Of a stretch of 64,000 nt of DNA, positions 3,253 to 63,355 are shown in pieces. Made by a program: the position numbers and the translations under genes. Source of the DNA: Cytophagaceae bacterium (GTDB lineage Bacteria; Bacteroidota; Bacteroidia; Cytophagales; Flexibacteraceae); NCBI GenBank assembly GCA_947458545.1, contig CANGYH010000001.1, forward strand, positions 1,674,001 to 1,738,000, written 5' to 3'. Position 1 is the first letter of the stretch, and each line of letters begins with the position of its first letter. Under the pieces are notes generated by a model. It was given only the letters and a program-made list of their open reading frames with translations, did not search any database and had not been told where the DNA came from.

Positions 3253-3260
3253 TACCTTTG
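3253..3260 (+). promoter_or_regulatory. Bacteroidota -7 promoter element before dusB
   Basis: TACCTTTG matches the Bacteroidota consensus TAnnTTTG and ends 8 bases before the dusB ATG. No good TTG is seen 17-23 bases upstream. The very short distance implies an almost leaderless transcript. Confidence 0.55.
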
Positions 3261-5247: not shown

Positions 5248-6897
5248 ATGACAAACAACACTGCCACGCAGCAACTGCAAGACCGCCTGACGGCCGCTTT
5301 TCCGACCGCTGACGCAATCCCCGAGGCCTTCCGCCTGCATGCCCCGCTGGAGCAGCGCGAGGTTCTCGTCAACGGTAGGCTTATCCCTTTTGAGGGTGAG
5401 CTGCAAGACGTGCTGTCGCCGGTGCAGGTGGTGGATGGTGCCGGTAACCGGGCGCCCTACTTGGTAGGCCGCTACCCCATCGGCACCGAGGCGCAGGCCT
5501 TGCAGGCGCTGGAGGCCGCCGTGGCTGCCTACGACGGGGGCCGGGGCACCTGGCCTACCATGGGCATAGAGGGTCGCATTGCCGCCATGGAGCACTTTAC
5601 CCGGCTTATGGTAACCAAAAAGGCCGAGGTGGTGCGCCTGCTGATGTGGGAGATTGGCAAGAGCCTGACCGATGCCACCAAAGAGTTTGACCGCACCGTT
5701 ACCTACATCTACGACACGATAGAGGCGCTAAAGGAGATGGACCGGGAGGGCTCTCGCTTTCAGATTGTGGAGGGAGTCATCGCGCAGATACGCCGGGCAC
5801 CGCTGGGGGTGATGCTCTCGATGGGGCCGTTCAACTATCCGCTGAACGAGACCTACTGCATGCTGATTCCGGCGCTGCTGATGGGCAATACGGTCGTTTT
5901 CAAAACGCCCAAGCACGGCACGCTGCTGCACTACCCGTTGCTGGAGTGCTTTGCGCAGGCTTTTCCGCCCGGGGTGGTCAACACCATCTATGGGCGGGGG
6001 GCGGCCGTGGTGCCTGCCTTGCTGGCCACGGGCAAGATTGATGTGCTGGGCTTTATCGGCAGCAGCAAGGTGGCCAACGGGCTCAAGAAGCAGCACCCAA
6101 AGGTGAACCGCCTGCGCTCTGTGCTGGGCCTGGATGCCAAGAACGTGGGCATCGTGCTGCCGTCTGCAGACCTGGACGATACCGTGAAGGAGTGCATCCT
6201 GGGTACACTGAGCTTTAACGGGCAGCGGTGCACGGCCCTCAAGGTGCTGTTTGTGCACCAAGACGTGGCCGAGGCCTTTGTAGCCAAGCTCTCCGAGGCG
6301 GTGGGCAAGCTGAAGGTGGGTATGCCTTGGGACGAGAAGGTCAACATTACCCCCCTACCCGAGCCCGGAAAACCCGCCTATCTGCGCGAGGTAACGGAGG
6401 ATGCCCTGGCCAAAGGGGCCCGCATCGTAAACGAGGGCGGTGGGGCGCAGGCAGGCTCGCTGGTGTATCCGGCCGTGCTGTACCCGGTGGCACATGGCAT
6501 GCGCGTTTACCGCGAGGAGCAGTTTGGGCCCATCATTCCGGTGGTGCCGTTTGCCGATATAGACGAGCCCATCCGCTACATGCAGACGAGCGACCACGGG
6601 CAGCAGGTGTCCATCTTCGGCCAAGATGCCGAGCAGATGGCCCACCTGGTGGACCCGATGGTGAACATGGTCTGCCGCGTGAACCTGAACGCCCAGTGCC
6701 AGCGCGGGCCCGACGTTTTTCCGTTTACGGGCCGGAAGGACTCGGCCGAGGGTACGCTGTCGGTGGTGGATGCGCTGCGGAGCTTTTCTATCCGCAGCAT
6801 GGTGGCCACCAAAGCCACCGACAAAGACAAGGCCATCTTGAACACGATGGTGGAGAACCGCGACAGCAGCTTTGTGAGTACGCGGTTTTTGTTGTAA
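5248..6897 (+). CDS. NADP-dependent glyceraldehyde-3-phosphate dehydrogenase-like aldehyde dehydrogenase (GapN type)
   Basis: 549 residues from ATG 5248. GapN enzymes oxidise glyceraldehyde-3-phosphate to 3-phosphoglycerate without phosphate, making NADPH. Visible features: SMGPFNYPLN (transition-state Asn196), TPKHG cofactor contact, the FIGSS turn, catalytic Cys328 in NGQRCTALK, EEQFGPIIPV, and a QRGPDVFPFTGRKDS ending, the substrate-site pattern of GapN. Oddly, the usual ELGGK general-base motif reads GLDAKN, so the residue 34 positions before the cysteine is Gly294 rather than Glu. It is divergent from the VOC gene. Exact substrate is inferred. Confidence 0.8.
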   Translation: MTNNTATQQLQDRLTAAFPTADAIPEAFRLHAPLEQREVLVNGRLIPFEGELQDVLSPVQVVDGAGNRAPYLVGRYPIGTEAQALQALEAAVAAYDGGRGTWPTMGIEGRIAAMEHFTRLMVTKKAEVVRLLMWEIGKSLTDATKEFDRTVTYIYDTIEALKEMDREGSRFQIVEGVIAQIRRAPLGVMLSMGPFNYPLNETYCMLIPALLMGNTVVFKTPKHGTLLHYPLLECFAQAFPPGVVNTIYGRGAAVVPALLATGKIDVLGFIGSSKVANGLKKQHPKVNRLRSVLGLDAKNVGIVLPSADLDDTVKECILGTLSFNGQRCTALKVLFVHQDVAEAFVAKLSEAVGKLKVGMPWDEKVNITPLPEPGKPAYLREVTEDALAKGARIVNEGGGAQAGSLVYPAVLYPVAHGMRVYREEQFGPIIPVVPFADIDEPIRYMQTSDHGQQVSIFGQDAEQMAHLVDPMVNMVCRVNLNAQCQRGPDVFPFTGRKDSAEGTLSVVDALRSFSIRSMVATKATDKDKAILNTMVENRDSSFVSTRFLL

Positions 6898-6919
6898 TAG
6901 GGGAAGTTTGCCTTTGGAG

Positions 6920-6969
6920 CCGGTTACAAACCGGCAACCTTGGGTGGGTCCCGGTTGCAAACCGGGACC
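6920..6969. repeat. Two adjacent intergenic palindromes sharing a CCGGTTxxxAACCGG core
   Basis: The first palindrome pairs 6920-6925 with 6929-6934 (CCGGTT/AACCGG). The second pairs 6947-6956 with 6960-6969 (GGTCCCGGTT/AACCGGGACC, 10 bp perfect). They share the same core and three-base loop and lie just after the GapN-like gene. They resemble REP-type extragenic palindromes or stacked terminator hairpins; no T-run follows. Confidence 0.6.
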
Positions 6970-7044
6970 AGGTACCTAGGATCTGCAAGGTCCTTCCTTA
7001 GTTAGCCTAAAGTAACGCTGGGAAAGCACCCCCTCACCCCCCAA

Positions 7045-7073
7045 CCCCCTCTCCCCCTCCTGGGGAGAGGGGG
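7045..7073. repeat. Perfect 12-bp inverted repeat in C-rich intergenic sequence
   Basis: Arms 7045-7056 (CCCCCTCTCCCC) and 7062-7073 are exact reverse complements around a five-base loop. The sequence just before it (7031-7049) is a C-rich track of the kind often scattered through bacterial genomes as an extragenic repeat. It sits between the convergent GapN-like and miaA genes and could act as a bidirectional terminator; no U-tract is visible. Confidence 0.6.
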
Positions 7074-7132
7074 AGCTGGCCTTCTGATCAGTATGGAGTT
7101 ACATCAAACAAATACTAGGGCAAAGTCTTGAT

Positions 7133-8014
7133 TCAATCTATTAGCAAGGCTGCCCGAGCCTCTGCCACTGGGAGGAAACGGACGCCGGGTTGGGCGCGGA
7201 ACCAGGTTAGCTGGCGCTTGGCGTAGCGGCGGGTGTTTTGCTGGATGCGGGCCACAGCCTCAGGGAGGGTGGAGAGGCCGTCGAGGTAATCGAAGAGCTC
7301 TCGGTAGCCTACGGTTTGGAGGCTGGGGAGGTGGCGCAGGGGGTAGAGGGCGGTGGCCTCGGCAAGCAGGCCGGCTTCCATCATGAGCTCTACGCGGCGG
7401 TCTATGCGGGCGTAGAGTTCGGAGCGGGGCATGTCGAGGCAGTAGAAATCTACGGGATAGGGCAGCGGGTCTGCCCCCTGGCCCAGGTGCTGGGTAAAGG
7501 GCTTGCCCGTGCCAAGCGTAACCTCCAGCGCGCGTAAAACCCGGCGGGGGTTGGCCAGATCTACCCGCTCGGCGGCGGCGGGGTCTAGGCGGCAGAGCTC
7601 TGCGGCCAGTTGGGCCAGGCCCTCCTGGGCCAGGCGGTTGGTCAGGTGCTGGCGCAGGGCCTCGTCGGCGGGGGGCAGGTCGTCGAAGCCTTGGAGCAGG
7701 GCCTTGATGTAGAGTCCGCTGCCGCCCACCAACAGCGCCCGGCCGTGGGCTTGCAGGCTGGCCTCTAGCACAGGTCGGGCCTGTTGGGCGTAGCGGTTGG
7801 CATCCAACAAGTCTGTTACCGGGCGGTCTGCCACAAAGTAGTGGGGCACGGCAGCGCGCTGGGCCGGGCTCGGCGGTGCAGACCCTATGGCCAGCTCGGC
7901 ATAGCACTGCCGCGCATCTGCCGATACGATGGGTACGCCCCAATGCTGGGCCAGCTCGATGCTCAGGTCTGTTTTGCCAATGCCGGTGGGGCCTGCCAGA
8001 ACGGTGATACGCAT
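7133..8014 (-). CDS. miaA: tRNA dimethylallyltransferase MiaA
   Basis: 293 residues from ATG 8014 (MRITVLAGPTGIGKTD). MiaA transfers a dimethylallyl group to N6 of adenine 37 in tRNAs that read codons starting with U. The P-loop GPTGIGKT is at residues 8-15, the catalytic Asp is in SADARQCY (a Ser-to-Ala variant of the common SADSRQ), GGSGLYIKAL forms the dimethylallyl-diphosphate pocket, and VGYRELFDYLDG and TRRYAKRQLTWFR give the tRNA-binding end. An in-frame start at 8050 would put 12 unneeded residues before the P-loop strand. It lies 42 bases after the DUF4342 gene on the same strand. Confidence 0.95.
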   Translation of the reverse strand: MRITVLAGPTGIGKTDLSIELAQHWGVPIVSADARQCYAELAIGSAPPSPAQRAAVPHYFVADRPVTDLLDANRYAQQARPVLEASLQAHGRALLVGGSGLYIKALLQGFDDLPPADEALRQHLTNRLAQEGLAQLAAELCRLDPAAAERVDLANPRRVLRALEVTLGTGKPFTQHLGQGADPLPYPVDFYCLDMPRSELYARIDRRVELMMEAGLLAEATALYPLRHLPSLQTVGYRELFDYLDGLSTLPEAVARIQQNTRRYAKRQLTWFRAQPGVRFLPVAEARAALLID

Positions 8015-8056: not shown

Positions 8057-8350
8057 CTAGTGCCTTGGCTCGTCGGCAGGGGCAACGTCGGGCGGGGGCG
8101 TTTCCGTAGGGCCGCTGGTGCGTTCAACGCTTAGCGTACAATCACCCACGAGGGCAGCCAGGGCCCCAATAGCAGCCAGCACAGGCGCCAATACGGCGCC
8201 CACCACACCTACCGTAAGCGGAAAGCTCATCAGCTCTTTGCCGTCTCGGCTGTGGATGACGATTTTGCGCACATTGCCCTCGGCAATAAGGGCCTTGACC
8301 TTATCTAACAGTTGCGCGCCAGAGAGGTTGAAAGATTCGAACTGTGCCAT
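8057..8350 (-). CDS. DUF4342 domain protein
   Basis: 97 residues. The N-terminal part (LLDKVKALIAEGNVRKIVI, then DGKELMSFPLTVGVVGAV, then LAAIGALAALV) matches the DUF4342 pattern: a short helical and beta region followed by one hydrophobic segment at about residues 47-70. The last 25 residues are rich in Pro, Glu and Thr and look disordered. The family is common in Bacteroidota and Firmicutes, sometimes fused to other domains, and has no established function. It lies directly upstream of miaA and may share its transcript. A membrane location is inferred from the hydrophobic stretch. Confidence 0.75.
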   Translation of the reverse strand: MAQFESFNLSGAQLLDKVKALIAEGNVRKIVIHSRDGKELMSFPLTVGVVGAVLAPVLAAIGALAALVGDCTLSVERTSGPTETPPPDVAPADEPRH

Positions 8351-11543: not shown

Positions 11544-12731
11544 TTAGCGCAGCAGCAGCGAGCTGTCGCCGTAGCTAAGGAAGCGGTAGCCGTTGTCTAA
11601 GGCGGTTTGGTAGATAGTGCGCCACCGATCGCCCACCAAGGCCGCCACCAAGGCCATAAGCGTAGAGCCCGGCTGGTGGAAGTTGGTGATGAGCCCGGCG
11701 CAGCTCTTGTAGCTGTAACCCGGCAGAATGTAGAGCGCCGTAGAGCCGCTGCAGGTGCTGTGCCCATCGGCGGCCACGCGGTCTGCCAGAGCCTGCAGGG
11801 CTTGGCCAAAGGTGATGGCCTCTGCCTCGGCTGCCAGCTCGTAGCTGAGCTTGCTGGGCAGGGCGGGCTGGTCTTGCCCGCGGAGCAGAATGCTGGCCCC
11901 GCGCCAGTAGAGCGTCTCGAGCGTGCGCAGGCTGGTGGTGCCTACGGGGATGATGGGCCGCGCCTCGGCGGCCAGGGTTCGGAGGGTCTCTATGGGAAGT
12001 TGGTAGCGCTCGGAGTGGATTTCGTGATCCTCCAGGTGCTCGGCTTTGACGGGTTTGAAGGTGCCAGCCCCTACGTGTAGCGTGAGGCGGTGGTGGGGGT
12101 GGCCTTGCGTCTCAAGCTCGGCCAGCAGCTCGGGGGTTAAGTGCAGGCCTGCGGTGGGAGCTGCCACGGCGCCGGCCTCTTGGGCAAAGACGGTTTGGTA
12201 GCGCTCTTTGTCCTTTTGGGTGGCCTTGCGGTGCAGGTAAGGCGGCAGGGGCATCTGGCCGACGGTGTCTAGCACTTCGGCCAGGGTCAGGTCTTCGGGT
12301 TGCCAGTTTAGGCGGACCTGGTCTTGGTCACGGTCGTGCCAGAAGGCCTGCACATCTAGGCGGGTGTGGCTGTCCAGATAGACGGGCACGTCGCCCTTCC
12401 ATCGGCGTTTGCCGCCGACCATGCACGTCCACACGGCCGAGCCACGCTGGGCCAGGGCCTCGGCGGCAGAGCCTTCGGCGGGCTCTAGCAACAGAAGCTC
12501 TAGCGGATGGCCCTGGGCAGTGAGCATGGGCAGGCGTGCGGCCAGCACGCGGGTGTCGTTGAGCACCAGCACGGCGTCTTTGGGCAGGTGCTGGCCGATC
12601 TCGAAGAAGCGGGCGTGGGTGATGCCGGCTTCGGGCTTGTATACCAGCAGCTTACTGGCCGAGCGCTCGGGCAGGGGATGCGTGGCGATGCGCTCGTCGG
12701 GCAGGTCGTAGAGGAAGTCGGACGTGAGCAT
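11544..12731 (-). CDS. queA: S-adenosylmethionine:tRNA ribosyltransferase-isomerase QueA
   Basis: 395 residues. QueA builds epoxyqueuosine in tRNA by moving and isomerising the ribosyl part of SAM. Diagnostic segments: [25 protein letters not shown] at the start, [36 protein letters not shown] followed by [10 protein letters not shown], and the end [17 protein letters not shown] and YRFLSYGD. It is somewhat longer than the E. coli enzyme because of inserts near residues 90-110 and 285-300. A TACCTTTG promoter element lies 11 bases before the ATG on the minus strand. yidD follows. Confidence 0.95.
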
Positions 12732-12735
12732 AGGA

Positions 12736-12816
12736 GGGGTGCAAAGGTACGATTCTTACCCAGAGCGATATATCTAACTAGGGAGGGTGCAACCACATTA
12801 CCAATTTGGGGTGCAA
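12736..12816. repeat. Three GGGTGCAA direct repeats between queA and the DUF262 gene
   Basis: GGGGTGCAA occurs at 12736-12744 and 12808-12816, and AGGGTGCAA at 12784-12792. Start-to-start distances are 48 and 24 bases. The first lies in the queA promoter and the last directly before the TACTTTTG element of the DUF262 gene. They could be operator sites; chance similarity is not excluded. Confidence 0.4.
12742..12749 (-). promoter_or_regulatory. Bacteroidota -7 promoter element before queA
   Basis: On the minus strand this reads TACCTTTG, a full match to TAnnTTTG, ending 10 bases before the queA ATG at 12731. No TTG is found at the expected distance. The element overlaps the first of three GGGTGCAA boxes in this region. 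Confidence 0.5.
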
Positions 12817-12819
12817 CGT

Positions 12820-12827
12820 TACTTTTG
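12820..12827 (+). promoter_or_regulatory. Probable -7 promoter element of the DUF262 gene
   Basis: TACTTTTG matches TAnnTTTG and ends 19 bases before the preferred ATG at 12847. A TTTG lies at 12805-12808, only 11 bases upstream, closer than the usual 17-23. Confidence 0.45.
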
Positions 12828-12846
12828 CTTATCGAGCGACTCGTAT

Positions 12847-14511
12847 ATGCCCAGCTTCAACGATCCTAACATCCAATCTTTCAATCGATTGTTCGGCAAT
12901 GGCATCACCTATGAGGTGCCTAAATTTCAGCGCGACTACAACTGGGACAACGAACAATGGGATGACCTCTGGCAGGACATCATTTTGCTCGAAAATGAGG
13001 AAGAAAGAGATCACTACATGGGGTACCTGGTGCTTCAAGAGGTGGAGCGCCAAAAGTTTATCATCGTGGACGGGCAACAGCGTTTGACGACCTTATGTTT
13101 GGTTGTACTTGCTGCCGCAAGGGTATTGAAGAAGTTTGAGGCTACAGGTATAGAGCAAAGCTCAACCCGACGAACTGATCTGCTGAGGAGGTTTATTGGC
13201 ACCATTGACCTCAAAACCTTAATTCCTAAGAATAAACTTGAGCTAAATCGAAATAACAACAACTATTATAAGCGAAATATCGTAACCTTAGAGCCACTGC
13301 CCAATTACGGATTAAATAGCAGTGAAAGGCTCTTGCGCAATGCCATCTTATGGTTTGAAAAGAAAATTCAGGAACACTATAGCACGGGCGTAGATATTGC
13401 TTCATTCATAGAAATTATCTCGACAAGGTTACTTTTTAGCGTTATTCAAGTCTCAGACACTGCCAGCGCGTATCGCGTTTTTGAAACCTTAAATGCGCGG
13501 GGAGTGCAGCTTAGCGCCTCAGATTTGCTCAAGAATTACTTTTTTCAGGTTGTTGACGGGCAGAATGGAGACCCGGAGCAAATTAATGAAATAGATGCAT
13601 GGTGGACAGAGATCGTAAATAAGCTAGGAGAAGAAAACACTGCCGAGTTTATTAGAATCTATTGGAACAGCTACAACCCTCTAGTGAGGAAGCAACAACT
13701 TTTCAAAGTATTGCGCCAATCTATTGCGAGCATAGAATCTGTTTTTTCGTTTCTCAGAGGGCTTCTGAATGCTGCTGATACCTATAAAGCTATCCAAGAC
13801 CCTAGCACCGGCTTTTGGAAGGAGCGGCCACAGGTTGCCCGCTTGCTCGGAGAGCTTAGAACCTTATCCGTCAAGCAACCCTATGCTGCCATGTTAGCCG
13901 GTTACGAAAATCTAGAAGCATCTAGGTTCGAAACCTTGATCCGGGCCATAGTAACACTTACTGTACGCTACAATACCATATCAAATCTGAATCCGAATGA
14001 TCAAGAAACCGCGTACAACGAATTAGCCAGAAGCATCTCTCACAGTAAAAGAATAGATTACAGTATAATGAAGAAAATTTATGTTAGCGACGAAGAGTTT
14101 GAGGCTAACTTCAACTACAAAGAACTAGGCCCTAGGAGCGAAAGGATAGCCAAATACCTACTACTCAAGCTTGAGGAACAAAACACAAATTCTAGTACAG
14201 AATCTATTTATGACGATTTAACGCTAGAGCACATAGCTCCTCAGAACTTAAACGAAGACTGGCAAGAAAGGAAATTAATGGAGTATTGCTACAGATTAGG
14301 CAACCTTGCACTGCTAGAAAAAAACCTCAATAAAGAGGCTGCCAATAAAAGCTATGAGATAAAGAAAGGAATATTGAGTAAAAGCCGCTATAAGCTAACT
14401 CGCTCTATACCAGAGCGCTTTAATCAGTGGGATTCAGAACGGATTCAGGCCCGGCAGGCAGATATGGCCAAGCAAGCCATCCTCCTATGGCGGATTGAAT
14501 TCCCCGGGTGA
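12847..14511 (+). CDS. DUF262/DUF1524 protein, GmrSD-like putative anti-phage nuclease
   Basis: 554 residues from ATG 12847 (MPSFNDPNIQSFNRLFG). The N-terminal DUF262 domain shows VPKFQRDYNWD (about residues 28-38) and the nucleotide-handling motif IVDGQQRLTTL (about 74-84). The C-terminal DUF1524 HNH-type nuclease domain shows LTLEHIAPQNLNEDW with the catalytic His, then LGNLALLEKNLN, about residues 458-500. This pairing is that of GmrSD-type type IV restriction enzymes, which cut modified phage DNA. The gene is visibly AT-rich against its neighbours queA and mfd and stands alone with its own promoter, suggesting horizontal transfer. Family firm; the target is inferred. Confidence 0.85.
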   Translation: MPSFNDPNIQSFNRLFGNGITYEVPKFQRDYNWDNEQWDDLWQDIILLENEEERDHYMGYLVLQEVERQKFIIVDGQQRLTTLCLVVLAAARVLKKFEATGIEQSSTRRTDLLRRFIGTIDLKTLIPKNKLELNRNNNNYYKRNIVTLEPLPNYGLNSSERLLRNAILWFEKKIQEHYSTGVDIASFIEIISTRLLFSVIQVSDTASAYRVFETLNARGVQLSASDLLKNYFFQVVDGQNGDPEQINEIDAWWTEIVNKLGEENTAEFIRIYWNSYNPLVRKQQLFKVLRQSIASIESVFSFLRGLLNAADTYKAIQDPSTGFWKERPQVARLLGELRTLSVKQPYAAMLAGYENLEASRFETLIRAIVTLTVRYNTISNLNPNDQETAYNELARSISHSKRIDYSIMKKIYVSDEEFEANFNYKELGPRSERIAKYLLLKLEEQNTNSSTESIYDDLTLEHIAPQNLNEDWQERKLMEYCYRLGNLALLEKNLNKEAANKSYEIKKGILSKSRYKLTRSIPERFNQWDSERIQARQADMAKQAILLWRIEFPG

Positions 14512-14526
14512 TTAGTCCTCACACTT

Positions 14527-17922
<3,396 letters not shown>

Positions 17923-19264: not shown

Positions 19265-19296
19265 TTGCGGGCTTAGATAACCGTTTGGTAACTTTG
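19265..19296 (+). promoter_or_regulatory. Bacteroidota promoter of the LTA-synthase-like gene
   Basis: TTG at 19265-19267 and TAACTTTG at 19289-19296 are separated by 21 bases, a good match to TTG-N17-23-TAnnTTTG. The ATG at 19307 follows 10 bases after the element, so the leader is very short. Confidence 0.6.
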
Positions 19297-43713: not shown

Positions 43714-44139
43714 TTAAACTAGCCAGATTGGCTTAACAAAAGGATTTATCAACGTAAGCCGCCCCTCGATTAACTGGCCATGTTGCATGTCTTCCGTATA
43801 GAGCCTGTCGCACCCGGCCTCTAGGGCTGCCGCTATGATCTGGGCATCGTATTGGGTGTATTTGTAGACTTGGCGTATTTGTAATGCCTTTTTTAGAACC
43901 GAAAGGGTCATGGGTACTACTTCAAATCGACCACTTAAAGTAGCCAATATCCGATTGCAGGCCTGGTCACCAACCTTGAATTTACGCTGGCTCACATAGA
44001 GCACCTCGCTAATAACCTGAGTACTGATAATCGTATCCTGCAGTACAACCTGGGATGCAAGCTCACTTTTGCCTGCGTCTTGGCCCTGGTGTAACCCATA
44101 AAGCAAAATGTTGCTGTCAATAAAGGCCAAGCCGTTCAT
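43714..44139 (-). CDS. PIN-domain toxin, VapC-like
   Basis: 141 residues. The PIN RNase acidic residues are visible: FIDSN (Asp8), QVISEVL (Glu), TQYDAQIIAAA (Asp) and YTEDMQHG (Asp). VapC toxins cut tRNA or rRNA. Its start overlaps the stop of the antitoxin gene by four bases (44136-44139), the usual coupling in toxin-antitoxin operons. Confidence 0.87.
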   Translation of the reverse strand: MNGLAFIDSNILLYGLHQGQDAGKSELASQVVLQDTIISTQVISEVLYVSQRKFKVGDQACNRILATLSGRFEVVPMTLSVLKKALQIRQVYKYTQYDAQIIAAALEAGCDRLYTEDMQHGQLIEGRLTLINPFVKPIWLV

Positions 44140-62666: not shown

Positions 62667-62844
62667 ATTTAAGGCTTGGGAGGAGGCCCTTATGGATTAA
62701 GTATGCCTCCATAAAGTGATGGCAGCCCAAATTGGTGCCAGCAGCTGTGAGGAATCGCTATGAATGAAGTATTGCTCGTATGGCCGGAAAGGTAGAGAAA
62801 GCAGTCAGGCGATCATTTATATTTATAATAATATTATTATACTA

Positions 62845-62877
62845 TTGTTTAAAAATGCAAATGGAGTATTATGTTTG
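62845..62877 (+). promoter_or_regulatory. Bacteroidota promoter of the GIY-YIG gene
   Basis: TTG at 62845-62847 and TATGTTTG at 62870-62877 are 22 bases apart. The ATG at 62882 follows 4 bases later, which supports that start over the ATG at 62780. Confidence 0.55.
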
Positions 62878-62881
62878 CCTT

Positions 62882-63355
62882 ATGTTTGAAAGCATTGAAT
62901 CCTATCTCAACTCCAAAACAATTGAACTTTTATCTCAACCCTCTCACAGCTTTTGTTTTAAAGCGAGAGGCTCTATGTCGATAAGCTTGCCGAATGTGGC
63001 AGGTGTTTATGCGATTTTCTTAGAAGAAAAGATGGTTTATGTTGGCGAATCAAAAAGCTTAAGGGAGAGATGGAGAGATATGTATGATTGTCGAAATCAC
63101 AATTTTCTACGAATTGTTGGTAATGAGTACCTTAAAGACATGAGTGGTTTCGAGCCTGCAACTTCATCGAGAAGGTACAGTGAACTTTTAACAAAAGAAT
63201 TATACCAATACTTAACTGATAATTTTAGCTTTAAGTACTTACCTGTCGACCTAGGTCGAAAGGAGTTAGAAGAATATATAACCAATCATCCTGAGTATTC
63301 AGCAACTTTAATGAATAGTAAGGGTAGGCGTGGGCAAAAGGGCTTGCGAATATAA
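62882..63355 (+). CDS. GIY-YIG nuclease-domain protein, AT-rich
   Basis: 157 residues from ATG 62882 (MFESIESYLNSKTIELL). NVAGVYAIFLEEKMVYVGESKSLRERWRDM carries the GIY-like GVY (residues 41-43), YIG-like YVG (53-55) and the catalytic Arg region of GIY-YIG nucleases. The C-terminus is helical and basic. Function is unknown; GIY-YIG domains cut or nick DNA in repair, recombination and restriction. The gene is clearly more AT-rich than its neighbours, pointing to transfer. Confidence 0.8.
   Translation: MFESIESYLNSKTIELLSQPSHSFCFKARGSMSISLPNVAGVYAIFLEEKMVYVGESKSLRERWRDMYDCRNHNFLRIVGNEYLKDMSGFEPATSSRRYSELLTKELYQYLTDNFSFKYLPVDLGRKELEEYITNHPEYSATLMNSKGRRGQKGLRI

Follow-up and report, generated by a model that had tools for sequence, protein, structure and literature searches.

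A solitary HEC-06/GmrSD-type gene between queA and mfd, probably encoding a single-protein phage defence enzyme

The window, i.e. the whole stretch of 64,000 nucleotides analysed here, carries an open reading frame for a 554-residue protein between queA and mfd. Both flanking genes scored above their NCBIfam equivalog cut-offs, in line with the location given in an earlier sequence-only reading. The close packing against the mfd stop was also seen; the two stop codons are 15 bases apart. The features of the locus are:

11544-12731, minus strand: queA, 395 aa
12742-12749, minus strand: TACCTTTG, divergent promoter-like element of queA, TAnnTTTG pattern
12820-12827, plus strand: TACTTTTG, promoter -7-like element (TAnnTTTG) of the gene, 19 nt before the ATG
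12847-14511, plus strand: HEC-06/GmrSD-type gene with ATG start, 554 aa (ORF, Pfam and PADLOC; N-terminus aligned with relatives)
14527-17922, minus strand: mfd, 1131 aa

The span had been given as 12736-14511. Its end was correct, but its start takes in intergenic sequence and the ATG is at 12847. A GTG at 12787, 60 nt before this ATG, would add 20 residues and yield a protein of 574 residues. In the alignment the N-termini of relatives matched ATG 12847, not GTG 12787. The TAnnTTTG element, which we take to be the -7 box of Bacteroidota, falls between the two candidate starts. The pattern was found 28 times in the window on both strands against 21 expected and, because 7 of 100 shuffles reached 28, the promoter reading is suggestive only. 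A scan for E. coli-type sigma-70 promoters found nothing upstream of the gene, and E. coli-type promoter and terminator scans yielded no more matches than shuffles. Thus, the claim that the gene has its own promoter is retained as a suggestive Bacteroidota-like element, but not as a sigma-70 promoter. At three of 40 ORFs the pattern lies just 8-10 nt before the assigned start (3253-3260, 12742-12749 and 19289-19296), which would imply leaderless transcripts or very short leaders there.

Both promoter-like elements coincide in part with direct repeats of 14-15 nt located around 12731-12822, and these repeats do not enclose the gene. Among the 14 repeat families listed (repeats of at least 10 nt) none had one copy on each side of the ORF. 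The corresponding interval was sought in relatives of the same family. In eight of nine, queA and mfd are on separate contigs; in the ninth they share a contig at a distance of about 72 kb. mfd was found in none of nine fetched queA regions and queA in none of five fetched mfd regions; because some contigs are short, the two genes may be adjacent in some of these genomes. A homolog locus in genome G357 was compared with its congener G059. The homolog DNA had no match in G059 and the comparison gave no clean junction because the flanking genes sit on different contigs. A second, lower-scoring QueA-like place was present in the own genome (C2) and in all nine relatives of the family that were searched; in these additional copies nothing matches residues ~277-326 of the window QueA.

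The gene is alone, as had been proposed. None of ten flanking ORFs (five on each side, at least 150 aa; shorter ones such as 8057-8350 were outside the scan) had a PADLOC match at E 1e-10, and Pfam and PADLOC recognised no modification gene among them. Their Pfam matches are ordinary, i.e. QueA, Mfd, IPP transferase, DUF4249, HlyD-type, sulfatase, DUF4910 and aminotransferase, and two ORFs have none. By these annotations the gene looks like a one-gene unit.

Its base composition departs from that of the window. GC is 0.43 and GC3 0.49, compared with means of 0.60 and 0.72 for the remaining 39 ORFs of 150 aa or more. The gene had been called the only AT-rich one. This holds in its neighbourhood but not in the whole window because the ORF at 62780-63355 has a GC of 0.356, the sole one of the 39 below that of the gene. 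This most AT-rich ORF counted in the window (191 aa) had no Pfam match at E 0.001. Another AT-rich ORF (43714-44139, GC 0.469) encodes a PIN-domain protein, possibly a VapC-like toxin. AT-richness is in part a family trait. Among 77 of 80 relatives' loci, those with enough flanking coding sequence, the gene was more AT-rich than its neighbours in 69 (mean difference -0.063). Nine same-class loci from eight genomes agree with this; in all of them the GC of the gene was below the locus mean, in one by very little (0.31 versus 0.318). The gap of the window gene, about -0.17 against the ORF average, is near the extreme (the lowest of the 77 were -0.19, -0.18 and -0.15).

The three peptides quoted in the sequence-only reading, FQRDYNWD, VDGQQRLTTL and LEHIAPQNL, are all present in the translation, and both Pfam domains were detected in one chain well above cut-off, PF03235 with 131.9 bits (cut-off 33.2) and PF07510 with 87 bits (cut-off 23). 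Thus, the protein has the N-terminal DUF262 and C-terminal DUF1524 domains of a single-chain GmrSD-family member:

12886-13545, plus strand: GmrSD_N/DUF262 (ParB/Srx-like NTPase and sensor), residues 14-233, Pfam PF03235, E 4.3e-38
13069-13083, plus strand: DGQQR NTP-pocket motif, residues 75-79, same in 81 of 81 aligned sequences
14083-14472, plus strand: GmrSD_C/DUF1524 His-Me (HNH) nuclease domain, residues 413-542, Pfam PF07510, E 1.4e-24
14230-14232, plus strand: predicted catalytic His462 (EHIAP), 81 of 81, and 12 of 13 in another set
14302-14304, plus strand: Asn486, part of the E-H-N-N set, 81 of 81
14329-14331, plus strand: Asn495, completes the E-H-N-N set, 81 of 81

The motifs listed for GmrS in PMC11411939, QR (Q28 R29), DGQQR (D75-R79) and FxxxN (F212/N216), were each conserved in 81 of 81 sequences, a count which includes all 80 relatives described below. 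F212, N216 and N230 lie in the patterns used to find these relatives and are therefore invariant partly by selection. The E/D-H-N-N (EHxxP) nuclease motif listed for GmrD (PMC4619093; PMC12707154) is represented by E461, H462, N486 and N495 (81 of 81) and P465 (80 of 81); the catalytic role of His462 and the Asn set is drawn from PMC4619093 and PMC11411939. At each of 20 motif and active-site positions the window protein had the majority residue of the 81 sequences, and I463, P465 and G485 vary in some rows. Thus, the active sites are intact. A 44%-identical homolog in genome G281 (L066, 1501-3171) has Tyr in place of the catalytic His of the EHIxP motif and may therefore be nuclease-dead.

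The best PADLOC model was HEC-06 (PDLC04154), which matched over residues 6-551 with 624 bits. Orf5 followed with 574 bits, and the SspE and type IV REase models were far weaker. The HEC-06 label is not sharp against Orf5 because all 40 members of alignment A2 match both models and the best Orf5 E-value among them beats the best HEC-06 E-value. A2 contains 39 of the 80 relatives, chosen by the author; L088, L097 and L109, each with one stop codon in its matched stretch, were excluded. The window protein is divergent. At 14 of 122 columns that are conserved in at least 95% of the 80 relatives it is off consensus, more than any other sequence, yet these changes spare the catalytic positions checked. 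Its branch in the tree, a quick build with SH-aLRT support only, is long (1.29), and because of this length and the 14 changed columns its placement is unsure. Its pairing with a Salmonella plasmid sequence had a support of 56 and was not relied on.

An AlphaFold2 model had a mean pLDDT of 89 and a pTM of 0.79. Its best structural match was DndI, with a TM of 0.76 in Foldseek and a Z of 27.6 over 527 residues (rmsd 4.4) in VIA-align. SspE (Z 19.2-23.5) and BrxU (Z 13) followed. The predicted fold is that of BrxU, SspE and DndI, all characterised defence enzymes with DUF262 and DUF1524. The rmsd over full SspE and BrxU chains was high (16-20), which suggests that in the predicted model the domains are arranged differently. 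The best PDB sequence match was also DndI (E 1.7e-15); the sensing Tyr25 of DndI aligned with Phe27. At the family level, the proposed GmrSD-type defence reading is borne out by Pfam, PADLOC HEC-06, intact motifs and these fold matches.

A single-protein search of genome contigs found no relatives. A search with alignment A1 confirmed at least 534 of 591 candidate stretches, of which the best 80 were retained; counts on these 80 describe the closest relatives with one of two sequence patterns, not the whole family. The distribution is patchy. In the own family, three of ten relatives had any match, all three partial and weak. Of 395 genomes drawn from the class, 8 matched at E 1e-60 or better; these include the own genome, and the best other sequence was 44% identical. 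The best 80 GTDB loci are spread over 12 phylum labels, and phyla are intermingled in the tree, e.g. a Nitrospirota sequence lies within an otherwise Bacteroidota group. Matches were found in 67 plasmid records (34 over at least 80% of the query), 3 phage records and 11 viral contigs. Of 5426 E. coli genomes, 31 contained DNA related to that of the Salmonella plasmid relative. All 31 places were chromosomal and in the 60-80% identity band; the ten listed were at 75%. Two E. coli copies were opened (L197 and L198, each at 6001-7683). Each is flanked by a DUF977 gene on one side and a TPR gene on the other, and the surrounding prophage, which we read as Rac-type, has kilR, sieB and ydaF. There, the DUF262 gene is prophage cargo downstream of the DUF977 gene.

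The settings of relatives differ. A Paracoccus plasmid copy is part of a type I operon (hsdM, DUF262 gene, hsdS, hypothetical gene, hsdR), and a Pseudanabaena plasmid copy stands apart and has Tn3 and IS630 transposase genes nearby. A panel of 12 query proteins for BREX, type I and type III-like systems detected markers in 16 of the 80 loci, seven BREX, eight type III-like and one type I; queries were labelled type III-like for their PF01555 and ResIII matches, and in locus L096 the sole marker is a BrxC match. Of the 44 loci flanked on each side by 3 kb or more, 10 had a marker and 34 had none of those tested. With the same queries, 14 control loci taken around queA or mfd yielded no marker; this control is weak because these loci were drawn from other genomes. 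Of 16 immediate neighbours in the nine same-class loci, 13 gave no PADLOC hit at E 1e-10 and three matched generic enzyme models (subtilase, UvrD-like helicase, ABC-type ATPase). Two Bacteroidota relatives have a small ORF that overlaps the DUF262 gene at its start (L096, 9642-9977; L101, 9612-9977). That of L096 encodes a helix-turn-helix protein, a possible regulator.

In the own genome, DndC, the only dnd/ssp gene searched for, had no TIGR03183 match. BREX was rejected; the sole PglZ hit was a response regulator-PglZ fusion, presumably PorX-like. Two other loci with GmrSD_N proteins were observed in this genome. A type I RM operon (contig C6; 4974-15031 of L059, 40001-60000) encodes HsdM, HsdS and HsdR; embedded between hsdS and hsdR are the genes of a Schlafen/AlbA_2 protein and of another DUF262 protein, which has 663 aa and GmrSD_N only. 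Elsewhere (contig C7; 9199-11449 of L060, 48001-68000) an EcoRI-type adenine methylase overlaps a 419-aa protein with GmrSD_N and a C-terminal HNH domain, possibly a compact two-gene RM unit.

Low GC3, presence in 8 of 395 class genomes, relatives in 12 phyla and copies on mobile elements and in RM loci together make horizontal acquisition a well-supported reading of the sequence data.

We consider it probable (about 0.78) that the gene encodes a single-polypeptide GmrSD-family antiphage nuclease of the HEC-06 type which was acquired horizontally as a lone gene. In the GmrSD family, NTP together with Mg2+ or Mn2+ stimulates the restriction of modified-cytosine DNA. For GmrSD and BrxU, DUF262 is reported to be tied to NTP use, the target is modified cytosine and DUF1524 is the nuclease (PMC10952713; PMC12707154). 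Judged by its relatives, the window protein would act against phages in a comparable manner. The N-terminal DUF262 domain would bind NTP via the DGQQR pocket and sense how DNA is chemically marked. If incoming DNA carried a disallowed mark, by analogy with GmrSD and BrxU most likely modified cytosine, NTP hydrolysis and a conformational change would follow. This would release the C-terminal His-Me (HNH) nuclease, which then may nick or cut phage DNA, as its relatives suggest. Most likely the enzyme leaves host DNA alone and is of type IV, i.e. modification-dependent, because no modification partner is beside the gene and a partner-free, host-tolerated enzyme is simplest as type IV. Modification dependence is not guaranteed because DndI, the closest solved relative, is reported to be nuclease-active even without phosphorothioation (PMC11662687).

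This property of DndI, together with its rank as best match in structure and in PDB sequence, leads to another view of the protein, i.e. an orphan constitutive nickase which attacks unmodified DNA while a phosphorothioate or other mark shields the host. Against this view, the DndC search was negative and none of the five large ORFs on each side was recognised as a modification gene. Moreover, DndI which lacks its mark is reported to harm its own host (PMC11662687), and its sensing tyrosine is replaced by Phe27. We therefore rate an unpartnered DndI-like nickase as quite unlikely. Alternatively, the gene may be an accessory captured from an operon of the BREX or type I/III kind, which today works, if at all, with an RM system elsewhere in the host genome. 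Some relatives do lie inside BREX, type I or type III-like loci, and the host genome has the type I RM locus with its embedded DUF262 gene as well as the EcoRI-type methylase. The immediate neighbours in same-class loci argue against such an association, with 13 of 16 lacking any PADLOC match and three matching generic models; in addition, independent action is reported for HEC-06 and BrxU (PMC11411939). A captured RM accessory is thus unlikely, though the least so of the alternatives weighed here.

Finally, the long branch and the 14 changed conserved columns might be signs of decay or of a non-defence gene retained by chance. A decaying gene would hardly be expected to keep an open frame, intact catalytic residues, a confidently predicted fold and a promoter-like element of its own, and we regard this as very unlikely. 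As a speculation, and an improbable one, HEC-06 genes may spread as self-sufficient single-gene units between housekeeping genes without a mobility gene of their own, with this lineage reading a mark other than modified cytosine.

A horizontally acquired, single-polypeptide GmrSD-family nuclease thus is the preferred reading. The gene belongs to an already described defence family and, by this membership, a role in phage defence is probable. The protein, a divergent HEC-06/GmrSD member that is intact and solitary, comes from a GC-rich Bacteroidota-like genome, a lineage read from DUF4249 and named relatives. It joins a set of relatives which span 12 phyla and are found in BREX, type I and type III-like settings, on plasmids, in prophages and alone. 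No concept is changed; the protein is a useful test subject for recognition by lone GmrSD-type enzymes.

Among known systems, HEC-06 of PADLOC (Hma-embedded candidate, GmrSD-like) is closest by profile, with a full-length match. Several HECs, HEC-06 included, are reported to have antiviral activity (PMC12988326), and HEC-06 and HEC-05 (BrxU) are described as GmrSD-like single-gene proteins that function independently (PMC11411939). In contrast to the eponymous candidates, the window gene is on a divergent branch and stands alone between queA and mfd. The helicase-methylase-ATPase (Hma) embedding, the context of HEC-06 discovery and no requirement of the family, was absent among the ten large neighbours searched with PADLOC. 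DndI of Salmonella (PDB 9JFL) has the same order of DGQQR and HNH domain and aligns over nearly the whole chain (527 residues), yet identity is 18% and DndI works with iscS-dndBCDE, whereas the window genome has no DndC match. SspE and DndI share the architecture and are reported to sense phosphorothioation and nick (PMC11662687). SspE resembles the window protein in its DUF262 and DUF1524 domains, its fold and an EHxAPQ-type motif. It differs in that full chains have 771 aa and work with SspABCD phosphorothioation, of which nothing was recognised beside the window gene. BrxU (PDB 7P9K; HEC-05) likewise is a single chain of DUF262 and DUF1524, which acts on modified cytosine and has a matching fold; identity is 14-15% and specificity for modified cytosine is a feature of BrxU. 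Eco94GmrSD, likened here by description alone, also combines DUF262 and DUF1524 in a single chain and acts on modified cytosine.
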